The notes beneath the pieces are model-generated. The model made no database searches. It was not told the DNA's origin and worked only from the letters and a program-made list of their open reading frames with translations. Both the position numbers and the translations under genes were made by a program. Shown here piece after piece: positions 3,816 through 26,458 of a stretch of 33,161 bases of DNA. This stretch comes from Spirochaetota bacterium (lineage in GTDB: Bacteria; Spirochaetota; Spirochaetia; DTKZ01): positions 1 to 33,161 of the forward strand of contig JAOABU010000030.1 of NCBI GenBank assembly GCA_026418195.1. The letters are read 5' to 3'. The stretch's first letter is position 1; every line of letters begins with the position of its first letter.

Positions 3816-4520
3816 TCACTTTTTCTCTTCTACGATCATCAGGGTCTTAGGATCCAAATGGACGCTAAGATCTTTCATCGGATAGGAGTCTCGATCTTTC
3901 ACCAGGCGAACGAGGATATTCCCCTCTGATTCCCCGAGGGTAATGAGCACATCGATCAGATTTTCGAAGGGTTTCAAGGAGGGGGGGAAATCCCGATTCC
4001 AGATCTTTTCGTTTTCCGGTTTTACGGTCGCACTGAACCAGATCGTTACTCCTACTTCGTTGGCAAACTGTTTGATTAACCGAAGATCTTCAGAAGTAGC
4101 TAGAGCAAAATTATACCCATCCACAATGATCTGGTCTGCTGCAAAGTTCCCATCCCGTATCATTGCCGTGAGACTTCGAATAATCTGTTGCGTTTTAACC
4201 CCTTCCTGGTTGAAACTCATGATCACTCGATGCCGGATGATTTCATCGTGTACTTCCATTGCTGCGTTCAACTTACGAGCTACTTCCTTGAAAATGTCTT
4301 CGTACCAACTAATGATATGATCAGTTCGAGTTGAAAAGGAAACATGGATTACCTGTTTCCCCTGTAAGAGGGCATCGGTTGCGATATGTACCAAGCATCC
4401 TGTTTTACCGATTCCCTTCGGAGAGGCTACAACGGCTAGTTCGCCTTTCTTTAGCGGTTCCTTCAGGGACTTCTCGAGGGCCCGCAAAGGGCTACGACGG
4501 ATCAATTCTTTCCTTACCAT
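3816..4520 (-). CDS. RecA-fold P-loop ATPase of unknown role (RadA/KaiC/DnaB-like)
   Basis: This is a 234-residue cytoplasmic protein. Residues about 30-45 form a P-loop (SPKGIGKTG) with Ser instead of the usual Ala/Gly at its first position. A later hydrophobic strand ending in Asp (QIIVDGYNF) looks like Walker B. The order of strands, FSTRTDHIISWY after the P-loop and IWFSATVK after Walker B, resembles the RecA/RadA/DnaB-type ATPase core without extra domains. I cannot assign a cellular role. It is the first gene of a three-gene unit with ribA and the GH31 enzyme, each separated by 3-4 bp. ATG 4520 has GAGGGA upstream at a good distance. It could be a regulator or loader of a nucleic acid process, but the sequence gives no partner. 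Confidence 0.7.
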   Translation of the reverse strand: MVRKELIRRSPLRALEKSLKEPLKKGELAVVASPKGIGKTGCLVHIATDALLQGKQVIHVSFSTRTDHIISWYEDIFKEVARKLNAAMEVHDEIIRHRVIMSFNQEGVKTQQIIRSLTAMIRDGNFAADQIIVDGYNFALATSEDLRLIKQFANEVGVTIWFSATVKPENEKIWNRDFPPSLKPFENLIDVLITLGESEGNILVRLVKDRDSYPMKDLSVHLDPKTLMIVEEKK

Positions 4521-4562: not shown

Positions 4563-6647
4563 CTATTTCTGTTCCTTTCTCCGTTTTTCTTGATAAGCTT
4601 TCTTCAATTCTTCTGCAATGGTGTTGGGCACACGACCATACTTCAGGAACTCCATAGAAAACTCAGCTTTCCCCTGTGTCAGAGATCGTAGCACCGTAGA
4701 ATATCCAAACATCTCGCTTAAGGGGACCTCCGCTTCAATCCGGCAAAAGTTGTTATCCTCCGTAGAACTTACGATAATTCCTCTCCTCTGGTTCAAACTT
4801 CCAAAGATATTTCCCTGGAACTCGGAAGGACCTTCTACTGTCACCTTCATGATGGGTTCGAGAATAATGGGTTTGGCTTTCTCATACGCTTGGCGGAAGG
4901 CACCAATGGCTGCTTGCTGGAAGGCGATGTCCGATGAATCCACCGGATGAGTACTGCCGTCATTGATCACGCAACGGATGTTCACCACAGGGAATCCAAT
5001 CAACGTTCCTTTCGTTCGGGCCGCTTGGAAGCCTTTATCGCAGGAAGGGATGAACTCGTTGGGAATAACTCCCCCTTTGATCATATTCACGAACTCATAC
5101 TCCTTTTCCTCACAGGGTTCCATGTATCCCGCCACGCGACCGAACTGCCCAGCGCCTCCTGTTTGCTTTTTATGGGTGTAATCGAACTCAGCCCTCTGGG
5201 TAATCGTTTCCCTATAGGCTACCTGTGGCATCCCTGTTTCCACTTCTGCCCGGTACTCCCGTTTCATGCGTTCGATGTACACATCCAGGTGAAGTTCTCC
5301 CATTCCTTGGATGATGGTCTGGTTAGACTCTGGATCCACATAGGTTCGAAAGGTAGGATCCTCCTTGGTAAACCGACCTAAAGCTTTAGCCATCTGATCC
5401 GCCGAGGCTTTATCCTTCGGGAACACAGCCAACGAAATGACCGGTGCTGGAATATACATGGAAGTCATGGAATAGTTGATCCCTGGGCTGCAGAAGGTAT
5501 CACCCGAAGCGCAATCGATGCCGAACAACGCCACAATATCCCCGCATACTGCCTCGGTAATATCCTCCATCTCATGAGCATGCATCCGAATCAATCTTCC
5601 CACCTTAAACTTCCTTCGCAATCGAGGGTTGTACAATTCATCCCCCTTCCGAAGCATACCCTGGTAGATCCGAATGTAAGTCAACTGCCCATACTGCCCC
5701 TCCTCTAGCTTGAATGCCAGTGCCACGAGAGGCTCTTTGGGATCCGCTTTCAATACTACCTCTTTTTCTCCGTCGTTCAGATCTAGAGCCGTATTCTTGA
5801 CTTCGGAAGGATTGGGAAGGTAATGAACCACACCGTCTAATAAGGGTTGCACGCCCTTGTTTTTATAGGCCGAGCCCATAAATACAGGAATCAGCTTCCT
5901 TGTTAAGACACCTTTTCGAAGGGCAGCATAGATTTGCGATTCTGTTTCGGCCCCTTCCAGAAATGCTTCCGCCAGTTCATCGGAGAAGAGGGAAGCCGCA
6001 TCGATCAGCTCTTCCCTTCGTTTTTCCGCCTCTGCCCTCAATTCCGCAGGGATCTCGCGTTCCACCACCTCTTCTCCGTTAGGTCCTTCAAAGTACAGAG
6101 CCTTCATCTGGATCAAATCCACCACCCCCTGGAACTTGTCCTCTAATCCGATGGGAATCTGCACAAGTACCGCATTATGTCCCAGCTTGTCTCTGATCTG
6201 TTCCTTCACCTTGTAGGGATTCGCACCTGTGCGGTCCAGCTTATTGATGAAGGCTACAAAAGGAACGTTGTACCTCCGGAGTTGTCGGTCCACCGTGATC
6301 GACTGGGACTGTACCCCACCTACAGAGCAAAGCACGAGAATCGCTCCATCCAGGACTCGTAGCGATCGTTCTACTTCGATGGTGAAATCCACGTGCCCCG
6401 GAGTATCGATGATGTTAATCGTGTGCCCTTTCCAGGTAACGTTGGTAGAAGCGGATGTAATGGTAATTCCCCGCTCCCGTTCCAACTCCATGTAGTCCAT
6501 CGTGGCTCCATGTCCATCCTTGCCCTTGACTTCATGGATCATGTGAATCTTGTCGCAATAGTACAGGATCCGTTCCGTCAATGTGGTTTTGCCGGAATCG
6601 ATATGGGCGCTGATCCCGATGTTTCGCATTTTAGAGATGTCCATCAT
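4563..6647 (-). CDS. fusA: Elongation factor G, spdEFG1 / mitochondrial EF-G1-like
   Basis: This 694-residue translational GTPase drives tRNA-mRNA translocation on the ribosome. The G-domain motifs are intact: G1 AHIDSGKTT (14-22), G3 DTPGHVDF near 82, and G4 NKLD near 136. Domains II-V follow in the usual order, with GMGELHLDV in domain III and GQFGRV in domain IV. Two features mark the subfamily: Ser18 in the P-loop where ordinary EF-G has Ala, and [20 protein letters not shown], which matches mitochondrial EF-G1 and the bacterial spdEFG1 group. In Borrelia the corresponding factor is the translocase while a second EF-G serves recycling. That second factor is not in this window. Start 6647 is preceded by GAGGG. 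ATG 6644 immediately follows and is possible. Confidence 0.96.
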
Positions 6648-6735: not shown

Positions 6736-7677
6736 CTATTGAAATTCGTTGAAATACACACTGAATACCAGAAACACTTCCTTGCTCGTCATTTCTATTC
6801 CTTCCGTTTTCAACTTCTCTCGGGCTTCATCCATCGTTAGCTTCGGTTGCTGCTTTTTTAACTCGACGAGCCGGTTGATTCCTGCTTCGGAAGGTAGGCG
6901 TATACTACCGAAAAATCCACGATTGTTCAAGACTAGCAGGGCGTATCGGAGAAGTTGGAACTCTGCGTACAAGTCTCCAACCTTCCTTTCCAGGGTTTGT
7001 TGGGTCTGAACCTGTTGCACAACCTCCTGCTTCAACGAACCGAGGAGACCTCGGATTTCCTGTACCTCTTTGCCAAAGCGGGAGTTGATCTGTTCACCTT
7101 CGTTCAACAATCTGTCAATCCGCGCTTCTATATCCTGGAACCGTTTTAGGATGTATTCAGGATCCTGGGATTGAATGTACGCATAGGGATTCAATACCGC
7201 TGCGAGAATCTTTTCCGCGAATTCTTCTTCTTTGAAAAATTGTCCTTTGATTCGCAAGAACAGATTCTCCACGACGATACGAAAATCGAACTCAAGGAAA
7301 TCCGTATAAAAGAACTGTATTCCCGATGGCATGTAGATGGCGAGGTCTCGATCTTTGTATCGGAACGAACGGGGGACCAAAAGGATTTCTGTTCGTTCAT
7401 CGGCGAGAATCACCCGAATAGAGGAGGGAAGAAGTGTCGTAAACCCTTTGAAAATGGAAAGAATCCCTTGCAACCTCTCTTGATCGCTCTTCCGAATCTC
7501 TGTTCCCTTGAAGAAAACACTGAGATCTATATTCCCCGGTGCCCTGAACTGGTATACCGTATAGGGTCCCTCTTTCGATTGAGACTTAAGGTCCAAACCC
7601 CACGAAGTGAAATCCTGTGAATTGAGGAAGGCGATGGTACCGATAAACAGCACCATACTCCATACGAATCTCTTCAT
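6736..7677 (-). CDS. Exported coiled-coil protein of unknown function
   Basis: This 313-residue protein starts with a Sec-type signal peptide (Lys-Arg, then a hydrophobic run VWSMVLFIGTIAFLNS), so it should be periplasmic or surface-attached. No lipobox cysteine is present. Residues about 20-150 are a mixed alpha/beta region. Residues about 185-245 are heptad-like (IEARIDRLLNEGEQ, then QQVQTQQTLERKVGDLY) and should form a coiled coil. The last 50 residues are a compact charged helical tail. I do not recognise a family. It is the third gene after the cyclase and the membrane coiled-coil protein, 11 bp downstream of the latter. Its ribosome site (TAGGAG) overlaps that gene's stop codon, so the three are very likely co-expressed. 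Confidence 0.8.
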   Translation of the reverse strand: MKRFVWSMVLFIGTIAFLNSQDFTSWGLDLKSQSKEGPYTVYQFRAPGNIDLSVFFKGTEIRKSDQERLQGILSIFKGFTTLLPSSIRVILADERTEILLVPRSFRYKDRDLAIYMPSGIQFFYTDFLEFDFRIVVENLFLRIKGQFFKEEEFAEKILAAVLNPYAYIQSQDPEYILKRFQDIEARIDRLLNEGEQINSRFGKEVQEIRGLLGSLKQEVVQQVQTQQTLERKVGDLYAEFQLLRYALLVLNNRGFFGSIRLPSEAGINRLVELKKQQPKLTMDEAREKLKTEGIEMTSKEVFLVFSVYFNEFQ

Positions 7678-7688
7678 ATCGGTTTCTC

Positions 7689-9143
7689 CTACTGCTCTTC
7701 TACCATAACTTTATCGAAGGGGCGGATCGGATTCTGTGGATCTTTCAACTCCAGTACCACCCAGGAGGCCTTCCCCGCTTCCCCCTCATACCGAATCTTC
7801 CCGATGTATTCATCATCCCTGCGGAACACCCTTGCCACCGAGCCCGGAGTGACCACCCGAAGCTTATCCACTACGACCAATAGATTCCTTGGTTCCCTCG
7901 GATCCAGTACATACCCCTGTTCTCGATTCTGGATTAGCAACTGCTCTACTGCATACACGTATCGATTCAAACCCCGAATCGTTTCTTCCTGAGAACGCAG
8001 AGCCGCATTCTTCTGCTGGATCCCCCGATTGAATACCTCTAAGATCTGTTCGTATAGGATTGCCACTTCCTTCTGTCGGGCTTCTATCTGAGCAATAATC
8101 GAGGGAACCACATTCTGAAAAGGAATCTTCTTCAACTCTCCTAACACGGACCCCAATTCATTGAGTTTCTGGGAAAGCCGCGATAGGGCCCCTACATCAA
8201 GAAGCCCCTCTGCCGTGAGTAAAGAACTATTGAACCGGGGAAGTCGGGCCTGCAGAACTGCTGGATCGATGGAGGCAGTCAATAGGGGAGCTACAGCATC
8301 GCTTACCCCTGTAGGATTGTACTTTAGAATCAAGCTGGCAATTTCCCTTGCATGGTTTGCCTTTAGAACAGCAACCAGATCCTGCTGGTACTTCTTCAAC
8401 CCTTCAATTTCCCGGGTGTACCGTTGGTTCAGTTCCCGCAGTTCGTTCGCATGAGCCTTGAGGGTTCGCTCCATTTCCATCTCATAAAGCCGCCTCTGGT
8501 TGTTGAGGATTTCTTCCTGTTCCCTCGCTCGCTGAACCTGTCGAGCATCGTAGGAATCCATCTGTTTCTGGATACCCTGGATCTCCTTTTCCTTCGCTGC
8601 TATACGGGGAGCATAGGAAGCTTGAATTGCCTGAAGCTGCCGATTTAGCCTGAGCTGAGCTGCCTGCAGCCGTTCCGTTTTGGCTGGTTCTGTGAGATCG
8701 GTAGAAGTAGCGATCAGTTCGGATTCTCGCTGGAACCCTAAACGGGCCTGTTCGATTTCTGCCCTCTGGCTATCCTGTAAGTCTTCTAGATCCTTCTTTG
8801 CTTTGGAAAGGTCTTGTTCCAGCCGTTTCGCTGTGTCCAGAACATCCCGCAGGTTCACCGATTCGAAGGCCTGGGCTCCTACCTGCACCTCCCTACTTTT
8901 CTTTTCGATGTAGAGAGTCACCCCGACCGCACCTGCAAGAAAGAACAGGACGATTCCCGCCACTACAACGGGCACTAAAAGACTCCGGTTCTGTTTCGTC
9001 TTTGCAAACTCGGTCTCCAGGTTGTACTGAGCTTGTCTCTGTCGGAACTCACTGGCGAGTTCCTGTAGAAAGAGGGATTTGCTCTTTTCTACTAGGTCCC
9101 GAACGTCACTGTTGGTTCCTTCTATTTTTCTTTCATCGCCCAT
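7689..9143 (-). CDS. Single-pass membrane protein with long coiled coil, unknown function
   Basis: The protein has about 484 residues from the ATG at 9143. A charged cytoplasmic N-terminus of about 53 residues is followed by one membrane helix (about 54-79) and then a long Glu/Gln/Arg/Lys-rich helical region to about residue 270, strongly coiled-coil in character. A mixed middle and a small beta-rich C-terminal domain (about 420-484) follow. The topology puts the coiled coil and C-terminal domain outside the cytoplasm. A longer reading begins with GTG at 9167 but lacks a ribosome site. ATG 9143 has GGAA at 6 nt and overlaps the cyclase stop by 22 bp, so I prefer it. The family is not recognised. 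The context suggests a structural or sensory partner of the cyclase upstream. Confidence 0.78.
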   Translation of the reverse strand: MGDERKIEGTNSDVRDLVEKSKSLFLQELASEFRQRQAQYNLETEFAKTKQNRSLLVPVVVAGIVLFFLAGAVGVTLYIEKKSREVQVGAQAFESVNLRDVLDTAKRLEQDLSKAKKDLEDLQDSQRAEIEQARLGFQRESELIATSTDLTEPAKTERLQAAQLRLNRQLQAIQASYAPRIAAKEKEIQGIQKQMDSYDARQVQRAREQEEILNNQRRLYEMEMERTLKAHANELRELNQRYTREIEGLKKYQQDLVAVLKANHAREIASLILKYNPTGVSDAVAPLLTASIDPAVLQARLPRFNSSLLTAEGLLDVGALSRLSQKLNELGSVLGELKKIPFQNVVPSIIAQIEARQKEVAILYEQILEVFNRGIQQKNAALRSQEETIRGLNRYVYAVEQLLIQNREQGYVLDPREPRNLLVVVDKLRVVTPGSVARVFRRDDEYIGKIRYEGEAGKASWVVLELKDPQNPIRPFDKVMVEEQ

Positions 9144-10816
9144 ATACCATTCCAATCCTTTGGACACGGGTAGGCTCCGGTCCGGTCTCGAAATACTTCT
9201 GCGAGGGGCAGGGCACAGCGACTGAAGTTACGGTTTGCTTCAGCCCAATCCCCCTGATAGTATGCTTCCAGTCCGACTCGAAAGGTATCTAAATCTTTCT
9301 GGAGTTCTTCATCGATCAATGCCCGTTCTATGGGCCAGTAAATCTTTTTGCCAATCGTTTTTCCCTTCACCTGTACCTGGTCCAACTCCACGAACACGTA
9401 CTGATTCGTGGTAGATTCCACTTCCTCCCGAATGTAGTCTGATACAACTACCGGAACTTTGTAGATCCGGGTCAACCCTTCCAGTCGAGATGCGGAGTTC
9501 ACGTTATCCCCAATCACCGTATTGACCATCCTCTCGTAGGACCCAATGGTGCCGTAAAAGACTTCCCCTCCATCGATCCCAACACCCACTTCGAGAAGTA
9601 CCGCCCGATACACCCGTTCTTCCGCTTCCGTAAGAGCTCCCCTCCTCCTCACGATCTCCTCTCGACGTTTGGTCATCTCCTGACGAAGGGAGGAGGCTAC
9701 TTCTTGGATCTTAAAAGCGGCTTGTACAGCCTGGAGACTCTTTCGTTCCTGCTCCAGCAATCCGAAGACCGCTAATAGAGCATCTCCAATAATAGAGCCT
9801 ATATCCCCGTTGAACTGGTGGATGTATCGAATCGCTCGGTCGTAATGGAGGTTCAGGAGCTTGATGATATCAGTGCCCAGAGTTTCCGTCATAAAGGTGA
9901 ACCCTTTGATATCGGTAAACAGGATAGCCAGCTCTTTCTTGGCCCCTTCTAGTCGAATTTCCCGTTCTTTATAAGCCCGTTGAGCGGTATCACGTGCAAC
10001 GAACTTCTTGAAAATCGTCAACAGGTTATCGATCGTGTTGGAAAGAGAATTGAACGCTACTCCGAGGAAAGAGACATCATCGTTGGGTGCTCCTTCCAGA
10101 TTCAGGAGTGAGATTCGCTGTTCCTTCTGCATCGTCATAATCTCTTTAGTAAAGAGACCCACGAAGCGGAGGATAAACTTTAAGAGGAAAACTCCCACCA
10201 ATACGCAGATGAGGGTAATGGCCACGATCAGTCCTGCAATGTTCCAGAAAATCCTTCGAGACTCAGCGGAAAACTCGTTCAGTTCTTCTGCACGAACAAG
10301 GAACAGATCCCATTTGGGATTGTACTTGTACACTCCGAAATATTCTTCTCCTAGATAGTGAAAACTTATCGTACCTTCGGTTATCTGTTTTTCTTTGTGT
10401 TGAATCAGGTTCTGTAAAACGGTGCTATCGGGGAACCTGTTCCACCTTGGCTGTCTGGAAGCCATCACAGTAATTTCACCGTTAGCCTTCACCCCGAGAT
10501 AGAGGGATTTTTGACCTTTCAACTCTTTCTCTGCGTTCTTCTCCATGGCGGAAACCGCACCAGCAAGATCCTGATTGAAAAAGTAGATATCGTACTGATT
10601 GGTGGCAAAGATATAGTTGTCCTTTAGATCCTTTACCAGAAGTTCGTTCATCAACTTCACCAGTTCACCCCGATTCAGCATCAGGTTGATGTAGTTGGTG
10701 ATGAAATTGGAAAGGAGAAGGAAAATAGAAAACAGTGTAAGGATCTTTACGGTAAGGGGAACCACCCGTACGCCACTTACCTTGATGCCTAAGACGCTAT
10801 CAATCCATCTAGACAT
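9122..10816 (-). CDS. Membrane-bound class III adenylate/guanylate cyclase
   Basis: The 564-residue protein makes a cyclic nucleotide from ATP or GTP. It has a membrane helix at about 22-44, an extracellular sensor region (about 45-185), a second helix (about 191-213), a HAMP-like linker to about 275, and a C-terminal catalytic domain. The catalytic metal aspartates are visible as Asp302 in FTDIKGFT and Asp345 in GDALLAVFG. The transition-state residues are Asn440 and Arg444 in IGDNVNSASRLEG. The Lys usually found three residues before the GD of the second metal motif is Ser341 here. The loop before GVGIDGGEV is longer than usual (RREEIVRRRGALTEAEE). A GTG start at 10825 is possible, but ATG 10816 has AAGGTG 6 nt upstream. 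It is the first gene of a three-gene unit. Cyclase identity is firm; ATP versus GTP is open. Confidence 0.93.
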   Translation of the reverse strand: MSRWIDSVLGIKVSGVRVVPLTVKILTLFSIFLLLSNFITNYINLMLNRGELVKLMNELLVKDLKDNYIFATNQYDIYFFNQDLAGAVSAMEKNAEKELKGQKSLYLGVKANGEITVMASRQPRWNRFPDSTVLQNLIQHKEKQITEGTISFHYLGEEYFGVYKYNPKWDLFLVRAEELNEFSAESRRIFWNIAGLIVAITLICVLVGVFLLKFILRFVGLFTKEIMTMQKEQRISLLNLEGAPNDDVSFLGVAFNSLSNTIDNLLTIFKKFVARDTAQRAYKEREIRLEGAKKELAILFTDIKGFTFMTETLGTDIIKLLNLHYDRAIRYIHQFNGDIGSIIGDALLAVFGLLEQERKSLQAVQAAFKIQEVASSLRQEMTKRREEIVRRRGALTEAEERVYRAVLLEVGVGIDGGEVFYGTIGSYERMVNTVIGDNVNSASRLEGLTRIYKVPVVVSDYIREEVESTTNQYVFVELDQVQVKGKTIGKKIYWPIERALIDEELQKDLDTFRVGLEAYYQGDWAEANRNFSRCALPLAEVFRDRTGAYPCPKDWNGIWAMKEK

Positions 10817-10838
10817 ACTACCCACCTTCTACCTGAGA

Positions 10839-10844
10839 ATTATA
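10839..10844 (-). promoter_or_regulatory. -10 box of the cyclase operon promoter
   Basis: A perfect TATAAT lies on the minus strand 22 bp before the cyclase ATG, in an AT-rich stretch between this gene and the CBS-ACT gene. No good -35 box is visible 16-19 bp upstream, which may point to activator dependence. The leader would be about 16 nt and includes the AAGGTG ribosome site. Confidence 0.5.
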
Positions 10845-25837: not shown

Positions 25838-26458
25838 ATGAGTGACAACCTTCTTTTCGATAAATACGGACATGTGATTCCAGCAGGTACGGTGATCTTC
25901 CGGGAGGGAGATGAAGGGAACGAGATGTTCATCATCCAAGAAGGGAAGGTTAAAATCAGTAAATCCATCGGCGACAAGGACCATGTGCTCGCTATACTGG
26001 GGAAAGGGGACTTTTTCGGTGAAATGGCCATTGTGAATCGGATCCGGAGAACCGCTACTGCGCAGACTGTCACCGACACCCACCTGTTGGCGTTCGACCG
26101 GCAGGGCTTTCGGAGCATGATCGAAAAGAACTCAAAAATAGCGATGAACATCATCGACAAACTTTGCCGCCGACTCCAACAAGCAAACATGCAGATCCAG
26201 CAATTAAAACGAAAGAACGCTCCTGCCCTCATAGCCCTTCATCTGGTATATGCCTTTGAAGGGGCTTCGCAGGATTCTATCCCTTTCGATAAAACCCTGG
26301 AAGAGATCTCCCTTTCTCTCGAGATGCCTCTCCAAGAAGTGGAAGGAATTGTGAAACGACTGGAAACAGAAGGAATCGTGAAGAAAGAGGGAAATTCTCT
26401 TCTTCTGGTAAATCCCCAAACTTTGCGGGAAAAATCAGGCACCGCATCGGAATTTTAG
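25838..26458 (+). CDS. Crp/Fnr-family transcription regulator or cyclic-nucleotide-binding protein
   Basis: This 206-residue cytoplasmic protein has a cyclic-nucleotide-binding beta-roll (about 10-100) with FREGDEGNEMFIIQEGKVKI and the phosphate-binding cassette GDFFGEMAIVNRIRRTATA. Glu62 and Arg71 of that cassette, the ribose and phosphate contacts, are kept. A long helix (about 100-125, CRRLQQANMQIQQL) gives the dimer interface. The C-terminal 60 residues look like a winged helix (KTLEEISLSLEMPLQEVEG, then IVKRLETEGIVKKEG). It has no Fnr-type cysteine cluster. A cAMP or cGMP receptor is the likely role, which pairs logically with the class III cyclase in this window. The DNA-recognition helix is less basic than in Crp, so DNA binding is probable but not certain. 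Confidence 0.85.
   Translation: MSDNLLFDKYGHVIPAGTVIFREGDEGNEMFIIQEGKVKISKSIGDKDHVLAILGKGDFFGEMAIVNRIRRTATAQTVTDTHLLAFDRQGFRSMIEKNSKIAMNIIDKLCRRLQQANMQIQQLKRKNAPALIALHLVYAFEGASQDSIPFDKTLEEISLSLEMPLQEVEGIVKRLETEGIVKKEGNSLLLVNPQTLREKSGTASEF

Follow-up and report, generated by a model that had tools for sequence, protein, structure and literature searches.

A recurrent spirochaete gene unit joining a class III cyclase without the substrate lysine to an overlapping coiled-coil gene: a candidate envelope sensing system

Results

The unit and its position in the window

We find that a gene for a membrane class III nucleotidyl cyclase (g1) and a gene for a single-pass coiled-coil protein (g2), usually followed by a gene for an exported protein (g3), form a unit that recurs across Spirochaetota, with the start of g2 held at one position inside the end of g1. 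The unit looks like an unnamed envelope sensing system. Neither g2 nor g3 has a family name, though the unit occurs in 83 of the 295 sampled genomes, and a search of open-access PMC for literature on the module found no paper.

The window, that is, the whole analysed stretch of 33,161 nucleotides (contig JAOABU010000030.1), carries g1, g2 and g3 consecutively on the minus strand (Table 1). The original prediction had set a three-gene module at 6736-10844, with a 22-bp overlap and an 11-bp gap; the three genes are there, and both the overlap and the gap (7678-7688) are exact, whereas the end at 10844 falls in the 5' flank of g1. The protein assignments made in that prediction were borne out as well: g1 matches PF00211 (E = 9.7e-19), g2 has one hydrophobic segment by hydropathy, and both g2 and g3 stay below every Pfam and NCBIfam cut-off.

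Table 1. Coordinates of the features discussed (window positions unless a locus is named)
Feature	Position	Strand	Remarks
g1, membrane class III nucleotidyl cyclase, 564 aa	9122..10816	-	ATG at 10816; in-frame GTG at 10825 a possible start
g1 second TM segment, about residues 190-211	10184..10249	-	hydropathy
g1 catalytic domain, residues 291-500	9317..9946	-	PF00211, alignment, conservation
g1 Ser341 codon, purine-selecting Lys position of adenylyl cyclases	9794..9796	-	alignment with PDB photoactivated cyclase chains
g1/g2 overlap, 22 nt	9122..9143	-	g1 tail IWAMKEK*, g2 start MGDERKI
g2, single-TM coiled-coil protein with C-terminal beta-barrel, 484 aa	7689..9143	-	
g2 TM segment, residues 55-73	8925..8981	-	hydropathy
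g2 C-terminal six-stranded beta domain, residues 406-484	7692..7928	-	AlphaFold2 model
g3, exported protein	6736..7677	-	
Collagen-repeat/g2-C-terminus proteins with g3	L085:4125-10401; L086:2-5149		no g1 alongside

The g1-g2(-g3) unit persists while the neighbouring genes change. In the window, an EF-G-like factor (4563-6647, minus strand) neighbours a 234-aa ATPase-like protein (3816-4520, minus strand) that shows a Walker-type motif by eye and has no Pfam match, and part of the class retains this pair next to the module. Of the 123 loci, 25 have a recognisable EF-G-like gene downstream, which is only a lower bound because many loci or their flanks are short.

Distribution and co-occurrence

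Among the 295 Spirochaetota genomes sampled (completeness filter 90%, some genomes still being incomplete), those with a g1 orthologue amount to about 28% and belong to 44 of 122 genera. The orthologue group is sharply delimited, no scores lying between E = 1e-52 (other cyclases) and 1e-198. Each of the 83 g1 genomes contains g2 as well, and none of the 49 genomes with g3 lacks g1 or g2. A protein search of 297 genomes belonging to the class found g2 relatives in 54, and a profile search found them phylum-wide. The original prediction thus stood up to the check set for it: the same gene order recurs across Spirochaetota in an undescribed unit whose partner genes match no known family and are almost never met apart from the cyclase, save for a few pairs of a g2 C-terminus and g3 that lack an adjacent cyclase (L085, L086). 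The third gene is less constant than the original prediction of a three-gene module implied: g1 and g2 are always found together in these genomes, whereas g3 was not detectable in 34 of the 83 g1 genomes (about 40%), family f25 (probably Treponemataceae) accounting for many of these. Hence g3 is an accessory to the g1-g2 pair.

The gene order in the fetched loci is g1-g2, usually with g3 next. Adjacent g2 was detected for 120 of the 123 distinct g1 genes in these loci, which come partly from g2-guided searches and count related genomes separately. A cyclase-only search, in which 80 loci were fetched without g2 guidance and 77 had usable downstream sequence, gave an adjacent g2 in 76 of the 77. 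There are exceptions: in L245 a g2-g3 pair lies upstream of the cyclase, and in L291 (G305:C47) the g1 orthologue has no g2 downstream, g2-g3-like genes being on another contig (L132). This genome is the only clear split of g1 from g2 seen.

GenBank titles that would place the module outside the phylum, in Bacillota, SAR324 or Caldithrix, were not accepted as evidence; the Leptospiraceae and Caldithrix loci match sampled genomes of the phylum by contig and position. We also dropped the identification of the trio with TP0485-TP0484-TP0483 of Treponema pallidum, a cyclase, a hypothetical protein and a fibronectin binder; genome G082, presumed to be of the same group, gave no match to g2 or g3, and the cyclase that it carries is a different one.

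The fixed overlap between g1 and g2

In 116 of 120 adjacent pairs, and in 73 of the loci from the cyclase-only search, g2 begins at the same place, its start codon lying exactly 22 nt before the g1 stop codon ends. Of these 116 starts, 114 are ATG, one is GTG and one is TTG. The bases of the start come from the codons for Ile (or Val) and Trp in a conserved g1 tail, W-x-G-I/V-W-x-M-x-x-K, and the Ile codon that creates the g2 ATG is ATA in 92 of 94 cases, compared with 19.5% ATA in the rest of g1 (P about 1e-62, with no correction for common descent). The module is not a chance arrangement, since both its gene order and the exact overlap are found again across the phylum.

A similar tail, W-D-G-V-x-x-M-x-x-K, closes other cyclases of these loci that have no g2, which indicates that the tail motif of g1 is older than the overlap. 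Letters resembling a Shine-Dalgarno sequence stand just upstream of the g2 start in 72 of 118 cases. From the sequence, the fixed overlap would fit translational coupling of the two genes at a set g1:g2 ratio. The overlap is released in the duplicate trios L139/L252, L140 and L240, and CTG stands in L139, L252 and L240 where other loci have ATG. The g1/g2 pair is an unusually clear example of an overlapping start codon kept at one position phylum-wide.

The cyclase and its catalytic site

By hydropathy, g1 has hydrophobic segments at about residues 18-43 and 193-211, with about 145 residues between them. The linker after the second segment (residues 214-290) is conserved and HAMP-like by eye. 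Pfam scans of 42 members found PF00211 in all 42 and neither HAMP nor a recognised sensor family in any. The conservation of the first TM segment and of the linker rivals that of the catalytic domain, and the g1 group is monophyletic with respect to the other cyclases of the same loci.

The residues that mark a class III nucleotidyl cyclase are in place: besides PF00211, g1 has both metal-binding aspartates (D302 and D345) and the transition-state Asn440 and Arg444, and these, like Thr433, are invariant in 123/123 g1. The purine-selecting Lys position is occupied by Ser in 117/123 and by Ala in 6/123, whereas each of the 42 further cyclases from these loci that can be aligned at this site keeps the Lys. 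None of the 123 g1 therefore has the canonical adenylyl cyclase signature, the Thr partner of the Lys being kept, and none has the Glu that guanylyl cyclases carry at this site (PMC4215837). In Mycobacterium avium Ma1120 this Lys is the ATP-selecting residue, and lysine mutants keep activity with altered specificity (PMC4215837). As the Lys is replaced, activity and product of g1 are uncertain; however, since the catalytic residues are invariant and lysine mutants of a class III cyclase stay active (PMC4215837), g1 is probably active as a cyclase, and its substrate recognition is most likely altered. The g1 group is a natural class III cyclase lineage with Ser or Ala at the substrate-lysine site.

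The partner proteins

The AlphaFold2 model of g2, which is of moderate confidence only (mean pLDDT 82.7, pTM 0.41), consists of an N-terminus, a TM helix, long helices and the six-stranded C-terminal domain. In a Foldseek comparison this domain is weakly similar to the barrel at the N-terminus of F1-ATPase subunits (E about 0.05, probability about 0.99, rmsd about 3). Residues 25-52, before the TM segment, and 79-110, after it, are better conserved than the rod. We infer that the N-terminus of g2 is cytoplasmic and that rod and barrel are extracytoplasmic. The conservation of the first TM segment and linker of g1, together with that of the membrane-flanking segments of g2, is what transmembrane signalling by the pair would lead one to expect.

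No Pfam or NCBIfam match of g2 recurs across members. Weak Pfam and PDB coiled-coil matches, including flagellin, DUF4407 and Phage_Mu_Gam, are scattered over single members and were rejected, as were g2 matches of E = 1e-4 to 1e-8 in family f20 (probably Borreliaceae), which we regard as coiled-coil background and which occur where there is no g1. The Borrelia P83/100 antigen family (PF05262) matched one stray member each in A4 and A5 and none of the window proteins.

The AlphaFold2 model of g3 is confident (mean pLDDT 94.3) and comprises a signal helix (residues 2-18), a beta-rich domain (22-172), a single helix of about 79 residues (173-251) and a helical C-terminus (256-313). Hydropathy gives no internal TM segment, the sequence contains no Cys, and no PDB fold match lies below E = 0.001.

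Variant and duplicated loci

The C-terminal 130-140 residues of g2 recur in L085 and L086 at the end of an exported collagen-type repeat protein; g3 follows this protein, and exported CarboxypepD_reg/SpaA-type proteins precede it. The genome of L086 (G067) has no g1 at E = 1e-60. As the C-terminal module of g2 here stands on exported proteins before g3, the end domain of g2 is probably extracytoplasmic and a partner of g3.

Duplication of the complete trio as one block is seen in some genomes. Diverged second copies that lack the 22-nt overlap occur in L138-L141, L240 and L252; in L138 and L140, where the next gene was examined, it encodes Big/Ig-like or InlB-type repeats, and some of the repeat proteins after paralogous trios have a lipoprotein-like N-terminus. 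Elsewhere a second cyclase lies directly after g3 (L039:7367-10609, L040:2803-4188 and L045:2605-4089); by eye, the second cyclases of L040 and L045 look like fusions of a response-regulator receiver with a cyclase.

Discussion

We consider it reasonably likely that the three proteins work as a signalling complex of the envelope and that the receptor cyclase g1 is under the control of g2, joined by g3 where that gene is present. In such a complex, g1 would be the inner-membrane receptor cyclase, with an extracytoplasmic sensor region, a linker and the class III catalytic domain, and g2, co-translated with g1, would sit next to it in the membrane through a TM segment of its own, with the coiled-coil rod and small barrel of g2 reaching into the periplasm. 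Exported g3, when present, would dock on the rod or the barrel. A periplasmic state would then alter g2 (or g2-g3), the change would reach the cyclase dimer through the conserved parts of g2 and g1 in and next to the membrane, and the resulting change in cyclic nucleotide synthesis would be read by CRP-type receptors. In the original suggestion this periplasmic state would be that of the cell wall or the surface. So understood, the original suggestion of a new signalling system gains support from the recurrent module, the fixed overlap and the lack of a known partner family, and the trio gives spirochaete cyclic-nucleotide signalling a defined candidate receptor complex. A more far-reaching version, which we hold only tentatively, is a spirochaete-wide system in which a multimeric g2 rod with a small-barrel tip gates, together with g3, the lysine-less class III cyclase; its product may not be plain cAMP, or selection may work in a different mode, and none of its partner families would be shared with a described system.

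The g2 and g3 proteins could instead form a structural or surface-assembly element, a stalk with its periplasmic partner, the cyclase being co-transcribed only to link its output and not regulated by either. The pairs of g2 C-terminus and g3 that stand without adjacent g1 beside collagen-repeat and CarboxypepD_reg/SpaA-type exported proteins speak for this, as does the position of paralogous trios before Ig-like/InlB-type repeat proteins, some with a lipoprotein-like N-terminus. However, g2 is found wherever g1 is, even after loss of g3, the predicted cytoplasmic juxtamembrane segment of g2 is conserved and the 22-nt coupling is constant, so that we regard a purely structural role as unlikely. 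It is less probable still that g1 is a degenerate cyclase serving as a nucleotide-binding or signal-receiving subunit, with g2 as the real effector: such decay would account for the loss of the substrate Lys in 123/123 g1, but the metal Asp pair, Asn, Arg and Thr are all invariant, and lysine-substituted class III mutants are active with changed specificity (PMC4215837).

Membership in the periplasmic flagellar apparatus of spirochaetes is the least probable reading. It would explain why fliF is present in 82 of 83 g1 genomes and g1 in only 1 of 28 fliF-negative genomes (Fisher p = 0.0014), a test that amounts to nearly one event because the listed fliF-negative genomes nearly all belong to one family (f9). 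Against it, 185 of 267 flagellated genomes have no g1, and no flagellar gene was recognised beside the module.

Among known systems, the logic of the envelope signalling complex proposed here appears most like that of YfiBNR (TpbB) of Pseudomonas aeruginosa, likewise a three-gene envelope module in which periplasmic partners control an inner-membrane second-messenger synthase (PMC2837407, PMC4655355). The likeness does not extend to the protein families. In YfiBNR the synthase YfiN is a diguanylate cyclase of the GGDEF type, the repressor YfiR is small and periplasmic, and YfiB is an outer-membrane lipoprotein (PMC2837407, PMC4655355), whereas the trio combines a class III cyclase with one bitopic coiled-coil protein and one exported protein and matches none of the YfiBNR families: Pfam scans of 42 g1 members found only PF00211 and no GGDEF, and g2 and g3 members gave no Pfam match to a YfiR-type repressor or an OmpA-like outer-membrane lipoprotein. 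With receptor-type class III cyclases (PF00211), g1 shares the catalytic domain, two TM segments and an extracytoplasmic sensor, and its W-x-G...M..K tail is also found on other cyclases in these loci; it differs from them in the Ser or Ala that replaces the purine-selecting Lys, in its obligate overlapping partner gene and in the absence of a Pfam sensor or HAMP domain. VtrA/VtrC of Vibrio parahaemolyticus are a co-transcribed periplasmic sensor pair of beta-rich partners whose output is a DNA-binding domain. Their chains came near the top of the g3 fold search, not significantly (E = 0.054, probability up to 0.60), and they have no sequence relation to the trio.

The genome has 17 matches to the cyclic-nucleotide-binding domain, one of them inside the window, on the contig of g1: a 206-aa protein at 25838-26458 on the plus strand (PF00027, E = 8.9e-26), a possible receptor.
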